From assembly GCF_003096835.1 (NCBI RefSeq), contig NZ_QENZ01000003.1, positions 868,001-932,000 on the forward strand: DNA of 64,000 nucleotides. Reading direction: 5' to 3'. The DNA comes from Balneicella halophila (GTDB lineage: Bacteria > Bacteroidota > Bacteroidia > Bacteroidales > Balneicellaceae). A program made the position numbers and the translations under genes. The notes beneath the pieces are model-generated. The model had not been told where the DNA came from and ran no database searches. It was given only the letters and a program-made list of their open reading frames with translations. Positions 9,247-60,099 of this stretch are shown here, piece by piece; the first letter of the stretch is position 1, and each line of letters opens with the position of its first letter.

Positions 9247-10908
9247 CTACTTGGAGTATTTCTTTTTCCGATAAAATGAATAAACAAAACCAACGATTAA
9301 TATAAATAGCAATGGAAATAATACGTTTATCAGTTGCCAATAGGTTCGTTCTGCCCGTGCTTTAGTTTTTTGAAGTGTTGCGGGAGTATATTCTTTATTT
9401 CTCAATTCTAGCCAGCCTTCATCATCGCAGAGGTAATCAATAGCGTTTAGTAAAAAAGTTTTATTACCATGGACATATTTATAGTCAATATTATAACCTA
9501 AAGGAAGAAATTGCATGGATGCTCTGCTACCTCTGGTTTCGTTTTTTATGATATCGCCATCGGCAATGACAATCATTTTATTGAAAGAACTTTTATCTTT
9601 ATAGTTCTTTTGTTGTGTATAAGCAAGCCTTCCTTTAAACACAGAGGAAAAATTCCCCTCTAATAATACGCCTACAGTAATATTGGATTGGTTGTAAAAA
9701 TTGGGCTTTTGCATGCGACTAATTTCTTGCATTTGAATCAATCTGGGAACATTTTCTAAACGTGTTGAGGTTGATGTTCGCAGTAAAGGAGTTGGCTCTA
9801 TATCTTGTAATGATAGCGTATCGATACTATTGGCGAAAACAGCTCGGACTGGCGAAAGTCCTTTGGTAATCACATGGAAAGGGTTAGTCTCCAAAAGCGG
9901 TTCGTATGCCCAAGGAAGTGCCGTGAAGCGTGGTTGCTCTCCTTTTAATGCAGTATTTACTTTAACCAAGTCTGAATTTCTATCTAGTACCAATTGAGGA
10001 TTGATGCGAATTCCGTATGTGAAAAGTTGGTCTTCTATATTTAAAGGCTTATAGAATGCTGTTACCTGTTGATTAGCCCGTAGGCTATCTTTAGACACTC
10101 GTACTTCATCAACCAACCAGAGAACCTTTCCCCCGTTCATAATGTATTGGTCAATAGAGAACTTATCATCTTCAGGGAAATCCTTATTAGGCTTTGCAAT
10201 GATAAGTGCGTCAATAAGTGTGTCAAGGTTTTGACTAGTTGCTCGAATAACATTGTAATTTTCGGAAAGTGACGTGGCAAAATCGATAGTTTGTGCGGGC
10301 AAAAGTTCGCCATGCCCTTCTAAAAATGCGACAGTAGGAAGTTTCTCCTGTTCAAGCATACGCAAACCATTCACTAACTCGTATTCTAGATTGGCGATGG
10401 ATTGATTCAAATTCTCCTGCCCAGAGAGAGCCGGATTGTTTTGTAATAAAGGAATAACAACTTCCTTCTCTTGATTGTGTAAAATCAGTGCAGGGAAGAG
10501 GAGTTGCTGTGTAAGTCTTCCTTCTTTATCTTTAATGTTGACACTTGTGTATTTTAAACCTCTTTGAGTGAGTTGTTCAACAGTTTTCGGATTGTCTGGT
10601 TCAATTTCAGGCAATACATACGATATATCTTGTGAGGTTTCTCTGTCTAATTCCTCTAAGATTTCTATGGTTGCTTGTTGCAATTTATGAAAGCCGTACG
10701 GCAATTCACCACTCAAATAAATCTCCGCTTCATAATCGTGATTTAAATCCTTAAGAAAATCGTAGGTGTTTTGAGACAAACTGTATCTTCTTTCTTTGGT
10801 TAAGTCAATTCGGTAATAATAAGTCTGTGAAATCCAATAGATGACTGAGCCTGCAATCACAAATATTACGATGAATAACCAATGTTTATATGTCTTGAAA
10901 ACTTTCAA
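9247..10908 (-). CDS. gldG: GldG-like ABC transporter auxiliary protein
   Basis: 553 residues with an N-terminal membrane helix (about 10-32), a large extracytoplasmic domain of the GldG/ABC_transp_aux type, and a C-terminal helix (about 527-547) before a basic tail RKKKYSK. Features include the YSLSQNTYDFLKDL start of the mature part and an internal AFLEGHGE motif typical of the family. In Flavobacterium johnsoniae GldG works with GldF and the ATPase GldA in an ABC transporter needed for gliding. Here it lies 4 bases downstream of gldF. No gldA neighbours this pair; a GldA-like ATPase occurs about 23 kb away with a second GldF/GldG set. Whether this organism glides is unknown. Confidence 0.88.
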   Translation of the reverse strand: MKVFKTYKHWLFIVIFVIAGSVIYWISQTYYYRIDLTKERRYSLSQNTYDFLKDLNHDYEAEIYLSGELPYGFHKLQQATIEILEELDRETSQDISYVLPEIEPDNPKTVEQLTQRGLKYTSVNIKDKEGRLTQQLLFPALILHNQEKEVVIPLLQNNPALSGQENLNQSIANLEYELVNGLRMLEQEKLPTVAFLEGHGELLPAQTIDFATSLSENYNVIRATSQNLDTLIDALIIAKPNKDFPEDDKFSIDQYIMNGGKVLWLVDEVRVSKDSLRANQQVTAFYKPLNIEDQLFTYGIRINPQLVLDRNSDLVKVNTALKGEQPRFTALPWAYEPLLETNPFHVITKGLSPVRAVFANSIDTLSLQDIEPTPLLRTSTSTRLENVPRLIQMQEISRMQKPNFYNQSNITVGVLLEGNFSSVFKGRLAYTQQKNYKDKSSFNKMIVIADGDIIKNETRGSRASMQFLPLGYNIDYKYVHGNKTFLLNAIDYLCDDEGWLELRNKEYTPATLQKTKARAERTYWQLINVLFPLLFILIVGFVYSFYRKKKYSK

Positions 10909-10912
10909 ACTC

Positions 10913-11641
10913 TTATCTCTTTTTAGTTATTACTATCTGTGTCAGCATGAGAAAAAAAACAGTAATAAGGATAAAATATACTAGGTCACGTGTATCTATC
11001 ACTCCTCTTGATATTGAATAATAATGTTCTTCAATGCTTAAAGAGATGAGTGTATTTTGCAAACTTTGTTTTGTGAAAATACTTGCTAAATAAGTCCATC
11101 CTGTATATATAAAAGCACAAAGTATCACTCCCAACAGAAAGGCAATGAGTTGATTGTTGGAAATAGACGATGTAAAAAGACTGATGCTCAGGTAAATACT
11201 TGCTAAAAAAAGCAATCCGATGTACGAACCACCAATGGCGCCAAGATCAACATTTCCTGCAGGATTAGCAAGCAGATAAATGCTAATGGCGAAAATAAAT
11301 GTGGGTATTAAAGCAAATAAAATGACTACAAACCCAGCCCAATATTTTCCCATGATGATATCCCAAGTGCTTAAGGGTCTGGTGAAAAGTAACAGGCTTT
11401 TCTTTGTACGATAGGTTTCAGAGAATAAATGCATACACAATGCTGGGATCAGCCATAGAAAAAGCCAAGGTGCATTTGTAAATAATCCATCTAAGTTTGC
11501 AAATTCTGTATCTAAAATGTTTTGATAACCAGGAAATACCCAAAGCAAAAGTGCACTCGCTAATAAAAATATTGCGACCACAATGTATGCCATCGGCGAA
11601 CCGAAATACAACGCTATTTCTTTACGAAAAATCTGAAACAT
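10913..11641 (-). CDS. gldF: GldF-like ABC transporter permease
   Basis: 242 residues with about six hydrophobic helices and the start MFQIFRKEIALYFGSPMAYIV, typical of GldF/ABC-2 permeases of the NosY class. The motif TYRTKKSLLLFTRPLSTWDIIMGKY after helix 2 is the cytoplasmic coupling region. It should form the membrane channel of a Gld-type ABC transporter together with GldG, encoded immediately downstream. Family knowledge comes from F. johnsoniae gliding mutants; in non-gliding Bacteroidota the same pair is common, and its substrate is not known. Confidence 0.88.
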   Translation of the reverse strand: MFQIFRKEIALYFGSPMAYIVVAIFLLASALLLWVFPGYQNILDTEFANLDGLFTNAPWLFLWLIPALCMHLFSETYRTKKSLLLFTRPLSTWDIIMGKYWAGFVVILFALIPTFIFAISIYLLANPAGNVDLGAIGGSYIGLLFLASIYLSISLFTSSISNNQLIAFLLGVILCAFIYTGWTYLASIFTKQSLQNTLISLSIEEHYYSISRGVIDTRDLVYFILITVFFLMLTQIVITKKR

Positions 11642-17693: not shown

Positions 17694-19018
17694 TTATAAT
17701 TCGAGAACAAACTGACTGCCTTGCCCTACTTCTGAAACTACGCTGTTAGTACCACCGTGGTTACGCATAATCTGACGAGAGAGGCTTAATCCTATGCCGG
17801 AACCATTCTCTTTTGTAGTGAAAAAAGGAATGAAAATTTGCTCCAATAGTTCTTTTGATATACCGCAACCATTATCCGCTACAATTAGTTGAGATTTATT
17901 GTTTTTATTTAGTTGAGCAATAATTTTTATCGTTGGGTTTTTAACCTTGTTCAATGCGTGGGTAGCATTTTTTATTAGGTTAAGAAGAACTTGTGATATT
18001 TGTCCCTCGTCTGCGTCTATTGTTAAGTTTTCTGGAGTTATTTCGTATTTAAAGTTTATTTTTTCATCCTCTACCAATAAAAGGAGATGCTCTATGAATG
18101 GCTTTGCTGCAATGGTTTTTAGTACAGGTGCAGAAACTTTAGTTTGTTTTCGATAAGATTCTACAAAATGAATTAACCCGACACCTCTTTCTTTGATAAC
18201 CTCTAAACCTTTAATTGTATTTTCCGTAATTTTCGGTGTGATAGGCTCTTTAGGAGATGTGTAATAATTTAATAAAGTATCACTTAAGGAAGTTGTTGGC
18301 GTGATGGAGTTCATTATTTTGTGATTGAGTACACGGATTAATTTTAACCACGCTTCTATTTCTTTAGCATCTAATTCATTGCGTTGTCCTGAATAGAAAC
18401 CAAGGTAAAGGACGTATTCCGCGTCTCAAAATTCGTAGCTTGTAGCGTAAGTTGGGTGGTGGTATTATTGTGCGTTAATTTGACCAATTGGCGGTTTCCC
18501 TCGCTGAGCATTTTAAACGCCTGATACAGATTTTCATCAATACATTTTAGTTGAACGATGTGCGTAAGCGTATTATAATTCAACAGTTTTTTGGCTTCCG
18601 TATTGGCTTGTAAAATGTTGCCGTTAGCATTGAGGACAACAATTCCCGTCGTAACTTGTTCCAAAAGAGCTGCAAAATATTGGTCTTGCTCTCGGTTTCT
18701 CAATTTCGCTTCTTGGATTAGTAAATTAATGCGATTTAAGCTCTTGTGTAATTCGCGAAGTGAGGAATTATTTACTTTTTCAGAAAAATATAAGGTAGAG
18801 TCTTCATTTTCTACAGCATTAAAAAAGTAGGCTATCTTTTGGTGAATTTTATCGAAAGCCGTAATAATTTGGTAGGCAGAAATAAGAAGAGCAATACCAA
18901 CTAACAACATGAGTGTGGGAGAATATTCATTGTTATACAACCACACTTCTAATCCTGAAAAGATGATAAGCAATAAAATATTTATGGCGATACGAGTATG
19001 TGAGGAGTGAGTGGACAT
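17694..19018 (-). pseudogene. Frameshifted PAS-type sensor histidine kinase
   Basis: Two reading frames together make one kinase. The first part (from the ATG ending at 19018) has two membrane helices, a HAMP-like linker and a PAS domain (LLEQVTTGIVVLNANGNILQANTEAKKLLNY) and stops at 18371. The second frame resumes as RNELDAKEIEAWLKLIRVLNH, with the phospho-acceptor His in LNHKIMNS (Glu after His is replaced by Lys), then the HATPase domain with N, G1 and G2 boxes (NLIKNATHAL, DNGCGI, GSGIGLSLS). A one-base loss near 18384-18389 explains the break. The H-box lies after the shift, so neither piece alone can work. It follows the sigma-54 activator by 4 bases, as in an intact regulator-kinase pair. 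Confidence 0.85.
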
Positions 19019-19022
19019 AGTT

Positions 19023-19793
19023 TTAAAGTTCGTATTTTTTAATTTTATTATATAAGGTTTGACGAGTAATGCCAAGCTCCGTTGCCACTGCACTAAGGTT
19101 GTTGTCGTTGCGTTGCAGACACTGTGCAATCATTTTACGCTCCATTTCTTCGAGGGTAGTCGTAGGCACTTCTATAATTTCGCCAGATGGGTTGAGGAGT
19201 AAATCTTCCGGAGTGATTTGCAGACCATCATTGAGGATAACGGCTTTTTCTATGGTGTGTTGCAATTCTCGGACATTGCCCGGCCATTGGTTTTTTGATA
19301 GTTTTTCTAAAGCTTCGGCATTTATTTTCAATTTGGGTTTGTTGTATTTGAGGGCATATTTCTCTAAAAAGAATTTCGCCAAAAGAGGAATATCGCTACT
19401 TCTGTGACGCAATGCAGGAACCTCTATTTGTATTGTGTTGATGCGATATAGTAACTCCTCACGGAATTTACCTTGTTTTACCAAATCCGGTAAATTGGCA
19501 TTGGTGGCACAGACCAAACGAATGTCGATAGGGATTTTTTTGTTGGAGCCTACTCGCACAATCTCACGAGTTTGTAAAGCCGTGAGGAGCTTTGCTTGTA
19601 GCGGTAGAGATAGGTTCGCTATTTCGTCTAAAAACAAGGTACTGCCTTTTGCCAATTCAAATTTTCCCATTCTGTCCTCTTTCGCATCGGTAAAGGCTCC
19701 TTTGACGTGTCCGAATAATTCACTTTCAAATAATGTTTCGGAAAGTGCTCCCATATCAACGCGAACGAGAAGCTCCCTATTTCTCAAAGAATT
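19023..19793 (-). pseudogene. Truncated sigma-54-dependent response regulator (NtrC family)
   Basis: About 255 residues remain of a protein that normally has about 450. The receiver domain and the start of the AAA+ domain, including Walker A, are gone. What remains begins around NSLRNRELLVRVDMGALSE, followed by the sigma-54 contact loop ESELFGHVKGAFTDA, Walker B (STLFLDEI), the sensor and Arg-finger region (ATNANLPDL...FREELLYRI) and a complete Fis-type HTH (ELGITRQTLYNKIKKYEL). The upstream sequence is not regulator but the antisense of an ABC ATPase tail. A TTG at 19785-19787 could be read as a start, but without Walker A the product could not be an activator. It lies directly before the broken kinase. 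Confidence 0.88.
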
Positions 19794-19896
19794 GCACCGC
19801 GAGGGAATGACGATTATCCAAGTAACTCATAATGATAAATTTGCAATCTATGGTGAACGCATCGTGAAACTGGAAGATGGAAGGATAATGGGGTAA
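19783..19896 (+). pseudogene. C-terminal remnant of an ABC transporter ATPase (MacB/LolD-like)
   Basis: The plus-strand frame reads LKELHREGMTIIQVTHND and continues to KLEDGRIMG before the stop at 19896. This is the H-loop (VTH) and terminal strand of a MacB/LolD-class ATPase. Walker A, signature motif and Walker B are all absent; upstream of about 19780 the same frame is only the antisense of the regulator gene. The fragment is thus the last 35 or so codons of a deleted gene. It points in the opposite direction to the regulator fragment. Confidence 0.82.
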
Positions 19897-33949: not shown

Positions 33950-34022
33950 GATTCCGTAGCTCAGCTGGTAGAGCACTTGACTTTTAATCAAGGGGTCCTG
34001 GGTTCGAACCCCAGCGGGATCA
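33950..34022 (+). tRNA. tRNA-Lys (anticodon TTT), copy 1
   Basis: Acceptor GATTCCG/CGGGATC, D arm GCTC/GAGC, anticodon stem CTTGA/TCAAG around CTTTTAA, T arm with GGTTCGAACC. Discriminator A, CCA not encoded. Confidence 0.97.
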
Positions 34023-34057
34023 CAAATTTATACTAAATAAATGTTTTTTGTTTTAAG

Positions 34058-34130
34058 GATTCCGTAGCTCAGCTGGTAGAGCACTTGACTTTTAATCAAG
34101 GGGTCCTGGGTTCGAACCCCAGCGGGATCA
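34058..34130 (+). tRNA. tRNA-Lys (anticodon TTT), copy 2
   Basis: Identical to the first copy over all 73 bases and preceded by a very similar T-rich leader, so the unit of about 108 bases is a tandem duplication. It shares the promoter and ends at the terminator that follows. Confidence 0.97.
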
Positions 34131-34136
34131 CAAAGA

Positions 34137-34259: not shown

Positions 34260-35180
34260 ATGGAAATTCTGGTAAAAGATATCTATAAAAGTTTTAAAGG
34301 GATTGAGTGTATCAGTGACGTTAGCTTTACCGCCTACGCTAATGAGATTGTGGGTGTACTAGCTCCACGAGGAAGTGGTAAAACTTTACTGTTAAATTTA
34401 TTGAGTCATAAAAGCCTTCCTGATGCTGGAACAATAGAATTTATAATTGATGAGAAACCCTTAACTAATAAAGATATTCCCCAAAATGTAGGATATTTAG
34501 ATGCAGATAATCCACTATATCCTTATATGACTGCTTATGATTATCTTACGTTTTCTGCAAGTTTCTATAAACTCCCAAGCTATTTGCGTAGAGATAGAGT
34601 GAGGAATTTAATTAAAATTTGTGGTATCTCTCATTGGAAACATAAACTGGTCTCTGAACTTTCAAAAGGGCAGAAGCAAAGATTGGGTATTGCACAGGCT
34701 ATGATTCATAATCCTGCATTTTTACTCTTAGACGAACCTGTCAGTGGTTTGGATCCGAAACAGTCGGAACAATTGTATGAGTTGATAAGAGAGTTTGGGA
34801 AAGAACGTACGATTATTCTTACATCAAGCCGTATGCGCGATATGGAGAATATGTGTGATACTATGCTCGTTTTGTCTAACGGTAAAGTGCTGGCTAAGGG
34901 CACGGTAGAGGAATTGCAACAAGAAGTTGCCAATAGCAGTATTTTAAAAATAGAAATAAAGGCTACTGATAGTACACGGGTATATGAAGCACTGCAACAA
35001 ATAGATTACATACAGATTGTGAAATACAAAGGGTTTAGTTTTGATATCCATACAACTCATGAAGATCGATTTGCTAGAGAACTCTTCAATATATGTGTTG
35101 ATAATAATTGGTATATTAGACGCTTAGTGGCTGCCGAAAAAACTTTGGAAGATACGTTTAAACAGTTGAGAAAGAATTAA
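34260..35180 (+). CDS. GldA-like ABC transporter ATPase with degenerate Q- and H-loops
   Basis: 306 residues, the length of GldA. Walker A is APRGSGKT (35-42) instead of GPNGAGKS. Where GldA has GYLPEHNPLY, this has GYLDADNPLY, so the Q-loop position is Ala82. The signature LSKGQKQR (134-141), Walker B FLLLDEP (154-160) and D-loop SGLDP are normal. The switch His of the H-loop is Arg191 (TSSRM; codon CGT at 34830-34832, one transition from CAT). Lys41, Thr42 and the catalytic Glu159 remain, so ATP binding is likely but hydrolysis may be slow or uncoupled. It heads a three-gene operon with a permease (6 bases on) and a GldG-like protein, forming a second Gld-type transporter. Confidence 0.9.
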   Translation: MEILVKDIYKSFKGIECISDVSFTAYANEIVGVLAPRGSGKTLLLNLLSHKSLPDAGTIEFIIDEKPLTNKDIPQNVGYLDADNPLYPYMTAYDYLTFSASFYKLPSYLRRDRVRNLIKICGISHWKHKLVSELSKGQKQRLGIAQAMIHNPAFLLLDEPVSGLDPKQSEQLYELIREFGKERTIILTSSRMRDMENMCDTMLVLSNGKVLAKGTVEELQQEVANSSILKIEIKATDSTRVYEALQQIDYIQIVKYKGFSFDIHTTHEDRFARELFNICVDNNWYIRRLVAAEKTLEDTFKQLRKN

Positions 35181-35186
35181 AACAAG

Positions 35187-35909
35187 GTGAAAGCGATTTT
35201 GAATATAACGAGGAAGGAATTACGACGGTGGTTGTCTATGCCATCATTTTATATTCTTTTAGGTCTTTTTTTAATGTCTGTAGGTTTGTACACATGGTTT
35301 TTCCATGCACAAGATTCTTTTTTCGATATTGAAAGAGTATTTCCTGCATCTTTAGGTGCTATCTATTGGGGATTAGCCATATTCGCACCTATATTGTCAA
35401 CAGGTGTTATTATGGAGGAAAAAAAGACAAATATGTTCAAAGTTCTGTTGGTGAAGCCCATTAGTGTTAGAAAAATTGTTGTTGGTAAATTGGGAGCTAT
35501 AGTTGTTGTCCTTGCGATCTTTTTAGTATTGAGTTCGTTACATTATCTAAGCATTCTATCAATATCAGCGATAAACTTTCATTATGTTGCTAGAAATTAT
35601 TTATTTTTATGTTTACTAGGTATTGCATATGCATCGATTAGTATGTCTGTTGCATCATTTTTTTATCATTATTGGAAGAGTTATTTGTTCTCTTACTTAA
35701 TAATATTTTTTGTTCATTTTTTTGCGAATCTATTAGGTAGTTTAAGCATAGCTGAGGTTCAGATTATCTTCAATTATATTGGATTGTATGCTCACTTCGA
35801 TTATTTCCTTTCAGGAGGTTTTGCTTTGAGTACATGTGTGTATTTGCTTTCAATAACTACTATTGGAACCGCTATTACTATTTATAAATTAGGTCGAGAT
35901 AACTCATGA
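35187..35909 (+). CDS. GldF-like ABC permease of the second Gld-type system
   Basis: 240 residues with six predicted helices. The start KAILNITRKELRRWLSMPSFYILLG and the loop MEEKKTNMFKVLLVKPISVRKIVVGK correspond position by position to GldF (KEIALYFGSPMAYIV; YRTKKSLLLFTRPLSTWDIIMGK), although sequence identity is clearly low. I infer that it makes the membrane part of a transporter with the ATPase before it and the GldG-like protein after it. Its start ATG-equivalent is GTG at 35187. The stop overlaps the next start by four bases (ATGA), a sign of translational coupling. Confidence 0.85.
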   Translation: MKAILNITRKELRRWLSMPSFYILLGLFLMSVGLYTWFFHAQDSFFDIERVFPASLGAIYWGLAIFAPILSTGVIMEEKKTNMFKVLLVKPISVRKIVVGKLGAIVVVLAIFLVLSSLHYLSILSISAINFHYVARNYLFLCLLGIAYASISMSVASFFYHYWKSYLFSYLIIFFVHFFANLLGSLSIAEVQIIFNYIGLYAHFDYFLSGGFALSTCVYLLSITTIGTAITIYKLGRDNS

Positions 35910-37375
35910 AATTAAAACGAAGATATAGACTTATTTTATTGATTAGTGCAGTAGTTATAGTCAATGTATTTGTATACACTTATGATTACAAAACACCCAG
36001 CACAAAGGAAGAAGTCTATGAGCTTGATGAGGCTTCTTTGCGCATATTAGACTTAGTAGATGATCCCATAATTATAACATTTTATAAGTCTGATAATCTT
36101 AATCCTTTAGAAAAACGACTCGCAGGAAATATTGAGAAGACCTTACAGGCATACAAAAATGCTACTGATATTCCGATACATATTGAAGTTGTAAATCCTT
36201 ATGAGAGCTTGGAGGTGGAACTTGAAGCTACGAACTCTGGAATCAAACCGATTGAGATAAAAGAAAGCAACAATGCACTTAGGAAAATCTTCCTTGGATT
36301 GATTATTCAAGAAGGAAACAGGACAGAAGTGCTACCGCAAATCATGCCACGCATGAGTACTGAATATTTGGTGTCATCCAGCTTGAGAAAATTGACGGAG
36401 AAAGGTCGTCGTAGGATTGCTTTGATTCAAGGTCACGGAGAATCTGAGCTTTCAGATATGTCAGGAATTGAAAAGCGCTTACGTCCAAACTATGACTTAG
36501 TCCCTGTTAAAATGCAATCAAAAATAGATTTAAGTGACTATGAATCAGTAGTAATCGTTGGACCTTCATTCAAGTACAGTGATACGGAGCTGGATCAATT
36601 AGACGAGTTTTTAGATGAAGGGAAAAGCATTTTTATTGCGTTAGACAGAGTAGAATATGATGCAGAAGAAAACGAAGGTTATAAAATAAACACTCGGATA
36701 GAAGAATGGTTGGTACGTAAAGGAGTAATCATTCAAAGTGATTTTATCGTTGACAATTCCTGTAGTAATGTAAGGGTGGAACCCATGGCACCTGCTATTG
36801 CTTTTCCTTATTTTCCTCAAATTACCAATTTCCCTCGTCATGTTTCCACTATAGGTGTAGGGGTGGTTGCGTTACGTTTTGCAAGTTCTATTGAATCTAT
36901 AGATAAGAAAGGGATTCAATTTACGCCATTGGCAGTAACTTCCGAAGTTTCTGGAAAAAAGTCGTTACCGTTGAGTATAAATATGAAGCACGAATGGACT
37001 AAAGCAGATTATCTGTTTCCTAGACAAGTTGTAGCAGGCTTGCTCGAAGGTCGCTTAGGCGCTAATGCTGAAAATGATTCTAAGATTGCAGTTATTTCTG
37101 ATGCCGATGTCGTTTTAGGAGATGAGAACTTACGTGAATTAGATAATCACTTGTTTGTGGCTAATATTATTGATTGGCTTTCTGACTATTCTGGCTTAGC
37201 ATCAATAAAGCACAGAGGCATAGGTGAAGAATCCAAAGAGCCAGAAGTAGAGGTGAGTGCAATTAAAAAGTATTTAAACATACTTCTGCCTGTTGCAATT
37301 ATAGGTCTAGTTGCTTTATTTTTCTTTTATCGTAGAAAATTGCATGTCGATAAACTTAGGACTTCAGATTTTTAG
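35906..37375 (+). CDS. GldG-like extracytoplasmic ABC auxiliary protein of the second system
   Basis: 489 residues, against 553 for the other GldG in this window. An N-terminal helix (about 7-26), a long periplasmic domain of the GldG/ABC_transp_aux type with IALIQGHGESELSD (the counterpart of AFLEGHGE in GldG), FLDEGKSIFIALD and IAVISDADVVLGDENL, and a C-terminal helix (about 457-477) followed by a short basic tail. The layout is the same as in GldG. The convergent miaA gene follows after 8 bases. The substrate is unknown. Confidence 0.85.
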   Translation: MKLKRRYRLILLISAVVIVNVFVYTYDYKTPSTKEEVYELDEASLRILDLVDDPIIITFYKSDNLNPLEKRLAGNIEKTLQAYKNATDIPIHIEVVNPYESLEVELEATNSGIKPIEIKESNNALRKIFLGLIIQEGNRTEVLPQIMPRMSTEYLVSSSLRKLTEKGRRRIALIQGHGESELSDMSGIEKRLRPNYDLVPVKMQSKIDLSDYESVVIVGPSFKYSDTELDQLDEFLDEGKSIFIALDRVEYDAEENEGYKINTRIEEWLVRKGVIIQSDFIVDNSCSNVRVEPMAPAIAFPYFPQITNFPRHVSTIGVGVVALRFASSIESIDKKGIQFTPLAVTSEVSGKKSLPLSINMKHEWTKADYLFPRQVVAGLLEGRLGANAENDSKIAVISDADVVLGDENLRELDNHLFVANIIDWLSDYSGLASIKHRGIGEESKEPEVEVSAIKKYLNILLPVAIIGLVALFFFYRRKLHVDKLRTSDF

Positions 37376-58836: not shown

Positions 58837-60099
58837 CTAAGACGATACTCGCTCTATTTTTGCCCCCAAATTACGAAGGCGTTCATCAATATTTTCATAA
58901 CCTCTATCGATTAACTCAGCATTATCAATTACGCTTTCTCCGTCTGCCATCATTGCCGCGATAACCAAGGCGATGCCCGCTCTTAAGTCAGGACTGCTAA
59001 GGTGCTGAGCTTTAAGTTGGGTAATGCCATTTACGATAACTCTGTGAGGGTCGCAAATAGTGATGTTTGCACCCATGCCTACGAGTTTGTCACAGAAGAA
59101 CATTCGGGATTCGAACATCCAATCGTGGCAAAGAGTATTTCCTTCTGCCTGCGTAGTAAGCACAACCATCGGACTCATTAAGTCTGTTGGAAATCCTGGC
59201 CATAGTCCTACTTGCACTTTTCGTGAAGGAGCTTTTAATGGTCTTTCGTAACGTACGCGTACCGTAGTATTATCAATAAACTCCGGTTTTGCACCCATTA
59301 AATTCATATAAAATGTAGGAGTGATAAGATGTTCTTTTACAATGTTTTTTATTGTAATATCACCTTTGGTACATAATGCGGCAATCATAAAAGTGCCTGC
59401 TTCAATATTGTCAGCAACTACCTGATGAGTAACACCTTTCAGTTTTTTAGTGCCTTTTATTTTAAGTCTATTAGTTCCAATGCCCTTAATTTTCGCACCC
59501 ATCTTTACTAAGATATTTGCTAAGTCACTCACGTGAGGTTCACAAGCGGCGTTATCTATTATCGTTTCTTTAGAAACAGTTGCTGCTAATAATAGTGCAT
59601 TTTCTGTCGCAGTTACAGAAGCTTCTTGAAGGAAGAGATAAGAATCTTGCTCATCAGGGAGAACAGCCTCATAAGTTGTCGTCGAAAAGTTCAATTTGAC
59701 TCCCATTCCTGTAAATACATCAGAATGAATATCCAGCCCGCGTTTGCCTATAACACAACCACCCGGGGGTGCTATAGTTCCTTTTCGGCATCTTCCAAGT
59801 AGAGCTCCTAAATATAAGATAGATGCTCTTATTTTTCTTACCAATTCTTGAGAGGGCACAGCATGTGTTATGCTTCCTGATACTTTCAGAGTATTACTTT
59901 CAAAAACGACAGTTTTGCCTAAGTCTTCTAAAATGGCAACCATAGACATTACATCTAATATTCGAGGCACATTATGTAGCGTACAAGGCTCATCGGTAAG
60001 TACTGTTGCTGCGATAATCGGTAATGCTGCATTTTTATTTCCAGAAACACTAATTTCACCTTTTAGTGGTGTTCCTCCTATAATTTTAAATTTAGACAT
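58837..60099 (-). CDS. murA: UDP-N-acetylglucosamine 1-carboxyvinyltransferase
   Basis: 420 residues, as for E. coli MurA (419). Lys22 (GNKNAALPI) and Cys115 (APPGGCVIGKRG) fall at the same numbers as the catalytic residues of E. coli MurA. LWPGFPTDLMSPMVVL and the C-terminal DRGYENIDERLRNLGA are conserved. It transfers enolpyruvate from PEP to UDP-GlcNAc, the committed step of peptidoglycan synthesis. Cys115 present means expected sensitivity to fosfomycin. It lies 5 bases downstream of murB, so the two successive enzymes are made together. Confidence 0.96.
   Translation of the reverse strand: MSKFKIIGGTPLKGEISVSGNKNAALPIIAATVLTDEPCTLHNVPRILDVMSMVAILEDLGKTVVFESNTLKVSGSITHAVPSQELVRKIRASILYLGALLGRCRKGTIAPPGGCVIGKRGLDIHSDVFTGMGVKLNFSTTTYEAVLPDEQDSYLFLQEASVTATENALLLAATVSKETIIDNAACEPHVSDLANILVKMGAKIKGIGTNRLKIKGTKKLKGVTHQVVADNIEAGTFMIAALCTKGDITIKNIVKEHLITPTFYMNLMGAKPEFIDNTTVRVRYERPLKAPSRKVQVGLWPGFPTDLMSPMVVLTTQAEGNTLCHDWMFESRMFFCDKLVGMGANITICDPHRVIVNGITQLKAQHLSSPDLRAGIALVIAAMMADGESVIDNAELIDRGYENIDERLRNLGAKIERVSS

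Follow-up and report, generated by a model that had tools for sequence, protein, structure and literature searches.

A second Gld-type ABC cassette in Balneicella halophila whose ATPase has lost conserved catalytic residues

The ATPase GldA2 of Balneicella halophila belongs to a second, ancient Gld-type ABC cassette, and it has lost the Q-loop glutamate and the switch histidine of its family. We consider it slightly better than an even chance that the protein is hydrolysis-impaired and is kept as a structural or nucleotide-binding (gated) subunit and not as the motor of a pump. This reading is favoured because the predicted ATPase fold is complete and selection on the gene continues in the relatives where it can be measured. 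The preliminary description of this DNA had proposed a protein that binds ATP, hydrolyses it poorly and serves as a switch or scaffold; judged from the sequence comparisons below, this would be the best-supported reading. The window is the whole stretch of DNA analysed, 64,000 nucleotides of contig NZ_QENZ01000003.1, and positions without a contig label refer to it.

The two Gld systems and the descent of GldA2

The second cassette is named GldA2-F2-G2, and the canonical system of the same genome GldA1, GldF1 and GldG1. The genes in the window are as follows:

34260–35180, plus strand: GldA2, second Gld-type ABC ATPase with a degenerate catalytic site, a 306-aa open reading frame (TIGR03522; PF00005; clade support 100/99; AF2 pLDDT 89.3)
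35187–35909, plus strand: GldF2, GldF-like ABC-2 permease of 240 aa, strongly diverged (TIGR03518, 58.1 bits; 24 of 36 near-invariant sites changed)
35906–37375, plus strand: GldG2, GldG-like subunit of 489 aa (TIGR03521, 167.1 bits; PF09822, PF23357)
10913–11641, minus strand: GldF1, canonical permease of the first Gld ABC system (TIGR03518, 275 bits)
9247–10908, minus strand: GldG1, canonical GldG of the first system (TIGR03521, 501.4 bits, above the cut-off)

The A-F-G cassette is intact and contains only one ATPase gene, and the stop of GldF2 and the start of GldG2 overlap by four bases. Its three proteins cover the Gld models almost at full length, but all score below the curated cut-offs; GldA2 reaches 224.6 bits against the equivalog cut-off of 402.6 bits for TIGR03522, under which GldA1 of the same genome (353.6 bits) also falls. 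GldA2 is a member of PF00005 (90.2 bits; cut-off 25), with Walker A, signature and Walker B motifs in an ABC fold (K41, LSKGQ and LLLDE, the AF2 model and its PDB matches). However, the Q-loop Gln/Glu and H-loop His that coupled hydrolysis of this type calls for are replaced by Ala82 and Ser190.

The GldA-GldF-GldG ABC system for gliding motility in Flavobacterium johnsoniae (TIGR03522, TIGR03518, TIGR03521) has the same three subunits, and PF09822 is found in GldG2. The cassette studied here differs in that GldA2 falls in a separate clade, the A, F and G genes are adjacent, and the two catalytic residues are lost. In F. johnsoniae GldA, the single substitution G40R, at the putative active site, impairs function (PMC9127263). 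No function or phenotype of a second Gld ABC cassette was found in our literature search. Directly upstream of the B. halophila cassette lie two tRNA-Lys (TTT) genes in tandem, identical in sequence and with similar flanks (33950–34023 and 34058–34131, plus strand).

An intact GldA elsewhere in the genome had been anticipated, and we located it: GldA1 lies on the minus strand of the same contig (G000:C3:623170-624048), away from GldF1 and GldG1, with the motifs GYLPEHNPI and LSTHIM and a canonical signature. Two Gld ABC systems can thus share one genome and should be annotated separately.

Within the order, GldA2 was matched in 102 of 393 genomes sampled, B. halophila included (E ≤ 1e-58), which is about a quarter. 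It also occurs beyond the order, both within the class and in further classes of the phylum. The A, F and G genes are grouped in nearly all relatives having enough flanking DNA, in the same order as here. Site-mixture trees separated the GldA2 and GldA1 clades (support 100/99) and put our GldA2 inside the GldA2 clade of family f106 (100/100), the family that the genome also joins in the HtpG tree (support 99). Because the two placements match, this GldA2 is inherited and is not a stray paralogue. The 29 class-level copies were canonical at every residue checked in Walker A, the Q-loop, Walker B and the H-loop. A FastTree analysis rooted on a distant DrrA-like protein placed our GldA2 outside both clades; we read this as long-branch attraction, since the site-mixture trees do not place it so. 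A recent foreign origin was rejected: the class and phylum samples held no closer match, the GC content is normal, and the gene tree follows HtpG. A search of GTDB contigs for close relatives by exact peptide patterns returned nothing with the GldG2 query and only distant ATPases with the GldA2 query.

Catalytic motifs and acceleration

The motifs of GldA2 are located as follows:

34362–34385, plus strand: Walker A APRGSGKT, residues 35–42 (G35A, N37R, A39S; Lys41 and Thr42 kept)
34503–34505, plus strand: Q-loop residue 82, Ala (GCA); Glu in 176 of 176 orthologues
34659–34673, plus strand: signature motif LSKGQ, residues 134–138, kept in the alignment
34722–34739, plus strand: Walker B LLLDEP, residues 155–160, with Glu159 kept in the alignment
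34827–34829, plus strand: H-loop position 190, Ser (AGC); switch His in 176 of 176 orthologues
34830–34832, plus strand: Arg191 (CGT), aligned with Ile/Leu, the switch position supposed in the preliminary description

The preliminary description had read the sequence correctly for Ala82 in place of the Q-loop Gln/Glu, for the Walker A motif, and for the retained Lys41, Glu159 and LSKGQ. It was also right that the switch His is lost, but Arg191 is not its replacement. GldA2 aligned with 101 relatives without gaps, and in this register (VILSSHILAEVEATCD versus IILTSSRMRDMENMCD) the His column holds Ser190 and Arg191 stands at a column of Ile/Leu. The remark that CGT is one transition from CAT is therefore inapplicable, since this codon replaces Ile/Leu and not the switch His.

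E82, E159 and H190 were invariant in all 176 distinct orthologues, and the Q-loop residue was Glu, not Gln, in the 45 GldA1 and 176 GldA2 sequences compared. Asp158 is also kept in our GldA2, which departs further from the family at T43L, just after Walker A, and at P81D. Among 12 near-invariant nucleotide-contact sites, 174 of the 176 orthologues had no change, whereas our GldA2 had six; the catalytic losses are not due to chance.

The rest of the protein has also changed. Of 101 near-invariant GldA2 positions, 37 were altered in our genome; the relatives averaged 0.8 such changes, and none had more than 8. GldF2, with the fraction listed above, is the most diverged of the three proteins, and 5 of 26 such sites were altered in GldG2. 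The comparison genes gave 3/169 for HtpG, 8/72 for GldA1 and 48/165 for MurA. Because the cassette proteins have changed heavily and HtpG little, the catalytic losses belong to a strong acceleration of the whole cassette, one that some other genes of this genome do not share. A generally fast genome was rejected as the cause, since HtpG is ordinary, though GldA1 and MurA are raised too.

Two other regions of the window are unusual. MurA (58837–60099, minus strand) is only 42% identical to its orthologues, which are 69% identical to one another; it still scores above the MurA cut-off and was perhaps acquired from elsewhere. At 17694–19896, a histidine kinase broken into two frames and an NtrC-like regulator that lacks its N-terminus adjoin an apparent ABC ATPase tail on the other strand, possibly through rearrangement or gene decay.

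Recurrence and selection in family f106

We screened 59 genomes of f106 and read the most divergent GldA2 copies. In genus g461, the switch His has become Arg in two of three genomes (G929 and G931), by a CGC codon one transition from the CAC of the third (G930); Walker A is altered in all three, and E82 and E159 are kept. In genus g469 (G960 and G961), the Q-loop Glu is replaced by Arg, the Walker B Glu by Gln or His, and the switch His by Lys or Gln. These five copies and our own all retain complete open frames with an adjacent F/G part. In G931, G960 and G961, F and G are apparently fused into one frame of 728–765 aa; apparent fusion frames lie at L311:3720-6014, L312:2915-5122, L313:2936-5119 and L114:2431-4650. 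An AU test did not reject a single clade for our losses and those of g469 (p = 0.63). The His losses in g461 look like separate events, as E82 and E159 are intact throughout this genus and one of its three members still has the His.

The preliminary description held that simple decay would be indicated if our genome were the only exception among orthologues of the same gene context. Across the order at large, this is the case. In the nearest family it is not, because g461 and g469 have losses at the same positions with their frames still open, and selection on them is purifying where it can be measured.

Genome size accompanies these losses. Every genome with a degenerate GldA2 is small, 2.0–2.8 Mb, and ours is 2.09 Mb. 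Among the 19 f106 genomes of 2.8 Mb or less, eight have a GldA2 match in the canonical range, three are from g461 and two from g469, and six gave no match at the threshold used, most of these six being incomplete. All 40 genomes above 2.8 Mb have a match, and every copy read from the larger genomes keeps E82 and H190.

The g461 genomes carry up to five canonical GldA-like ATPases each (L349-L366; LSGGY, Q-loop Gln), most of them followed by a frame of about 780–850 aa related to GldF/GldG; these ATPases make up an expanded paralogue family. ABC-type matches in unusually long open frames of 1570–1585 aa were found on G960:C5, G961:C10, G955:C48 and G962:C1.

Pairwise dN/dS values (Nei-Gojobori) for GldA2 in g461 were 0.23, 0.27 and 0.20, a range that includes the pair L309/L311, in which both copies carry the His-to-Arg change; canonical f106 pairs gave 0.008–0.047. 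The F and G parts of g461 gave 0.25–0.33. In the g469 GldA2 pair (identity 51%), synonymous sites were saturated (pS 0.825) and pN was 0.33. Conservation in the degenerate pairs is highest in segment 131–205, which runs from the signature through Walker B to the H-loop. When neutral change was simulated up to the observed divergence, about eight stop codons were expected in GldA2 alone, and none was seen; because the simulation counts all changes as unselected, this is a bound only. As dN/dS is raised but well under 1 and stops are absent, constraint, as measured in g461, is relaxed about five-fold or more relative to canonical relatives, yet it is not neutral. On the open frames, the simulation and the g461 ratios, a pseudogene produced by pure neutral decay was rejected, although partial relaxation is clear.

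Possible roles of GldA2 and alternative explanations

The AF2 model of GldA2 (mean pLDDT 89.3) shows the whole ATPase fold, which by itself says nothing about activity; the solved chains nearest to the model are the DrrA/LptB-like ATPases 4yer, LptB and 1vpl (TMt 0.76–0.89). We know of no DrrA/LptB-like ATPase of known structure with a comparable natural loss of residues.

The residues lost in GldA2 contact the gamma-phosphate and couple the site to the permease (PMC7756269). Substitution of the H-loop His lowers ATPase activity to less than 2% in MalK and HisP and to less than 0.1% in HlyB (PMC6222333). Since such substitutions abolish most activity in other transporters, hydrolysis by GldA2 is probably strongly reduced. 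ATP binding would in principle be possible with Lys41, Walker B and the signature retained, and with Glu159, Lys41 and the signature in place weak hydrolysis may still occur.

In B. halophila and some relatives with small genomes, GldA2 has shed residues with which such ATPases sense the gamma-phosphate and cleave it (the Q-loop Glu, the switch His and parts of Walker A; the Walker B Glu as well in g469). It retains its fold, the Lys of Walker A, the signature and its place beside the permease. We propose that the protein would presumably still assemble with GldF2 and GldG2, perhaps binding ATP, and with little hydrolysis it could act as a scaffold or switch. More tentatively, and with appreciably more doubt, a homodimeric, catalytically dead GldA2 may form a structural or ATP-sensing platform of the GldF2/GldG2 complex, an ABC-2 system without ATP hydrolysis; g469 lacks the Q-loop Glu, the Walker B Glu and the switch His alike.

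The main rival is decay toward loss: constraint is weak, the permease has diverged further still, and it is small genomes that are affected. The cassette would then be dispensable in small genomes, and the lost residues would be tolerated mutations with no new role. We regard this as a serious but rather unlikely explanation. It accounts for the acceleration of all three proteins, for degeneration and apparent absence being confined, within f106, to genomes of at most 2.8 Mb, and for the rise of dN/dS from 0.01–0.05 to 0.20–0.27. However, six divergent copies, five of them in two other genera, keep complete frames beside F and G, the g461 ratios stay well under 1, and a wholly neutral history would have produced stops.

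CFTR, TAP, MRP1, Pdr5 and TM287/288 likewise keep a naturally hydrolysis-impaired ATPase domain, but there the degenerate domain is paired with a canonical one, whereas a GldA2 homodimer would have two degenerate sites. GldA2 might pair with GldA1, as in asymmetric ABC exporters, with the degenerate site its own and its intact signature lent to the GldA1 site. The presence of an intact GldA1 in our genome agrees with this, and so does the distribution of losses, which affect 6 of 12 cis contacts and 1 of 10 trans contacts; mutation of the H-loop His in the degenerate site of MRP1 barely affects transport (PMC7756269). However, the cis/trans contrast falls short of significance (Fisher p = 0.074) and is weaker or absent in g461 and g469, so it is at most suggestive for our GldA2. 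No GldA1-like match was found in the five g461 and g469 genomes (completeness 64–84%), where the next-best full-length ATPase matches of g461 belong to the canonical paralogue family. Loss of the Walker B Glu is the hallmark of degenerate-site exporters, but Glu159 is kept in our GldA2 and the residue is lost only in the g469 relatives; the GldA1 signature shows no matching loss, and the canonical partner is not encoded alongside but elsewhere. The heterodimer suggested in the preliminary description is thus possible in our genome but unlikely as a general explanation, and we give it a low probability overall. We think it still less probable that GldA2 is an active ATPase in which other residues compensate for the lost Glu and His. 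The kept Lys41, Asp158, Glu159 and LSKGQ and the reported exception of the yeast exporter Pdr5 to the H-loop His requirement (PMC6222333) would permit it; the near-complete inactivation of HlyB, MalK and HisP, and the coincidence of Q-loop, H-loop and Walker A changes in GldA2, argue against it.

If selection retains GldA2 for a structural or nucleotide-gated role, it would be unusual as a natural ABC ATPase without a partner that supplies catalysis. Intact, half-degenerate and fully degenerate cassettes in related species would make it possible to ask how a GldF/GldG-type membrane complex works without ATP hydrolysis. The same set of species bears on whether such degeneration is adaptive or a step toward loss in small genomes.
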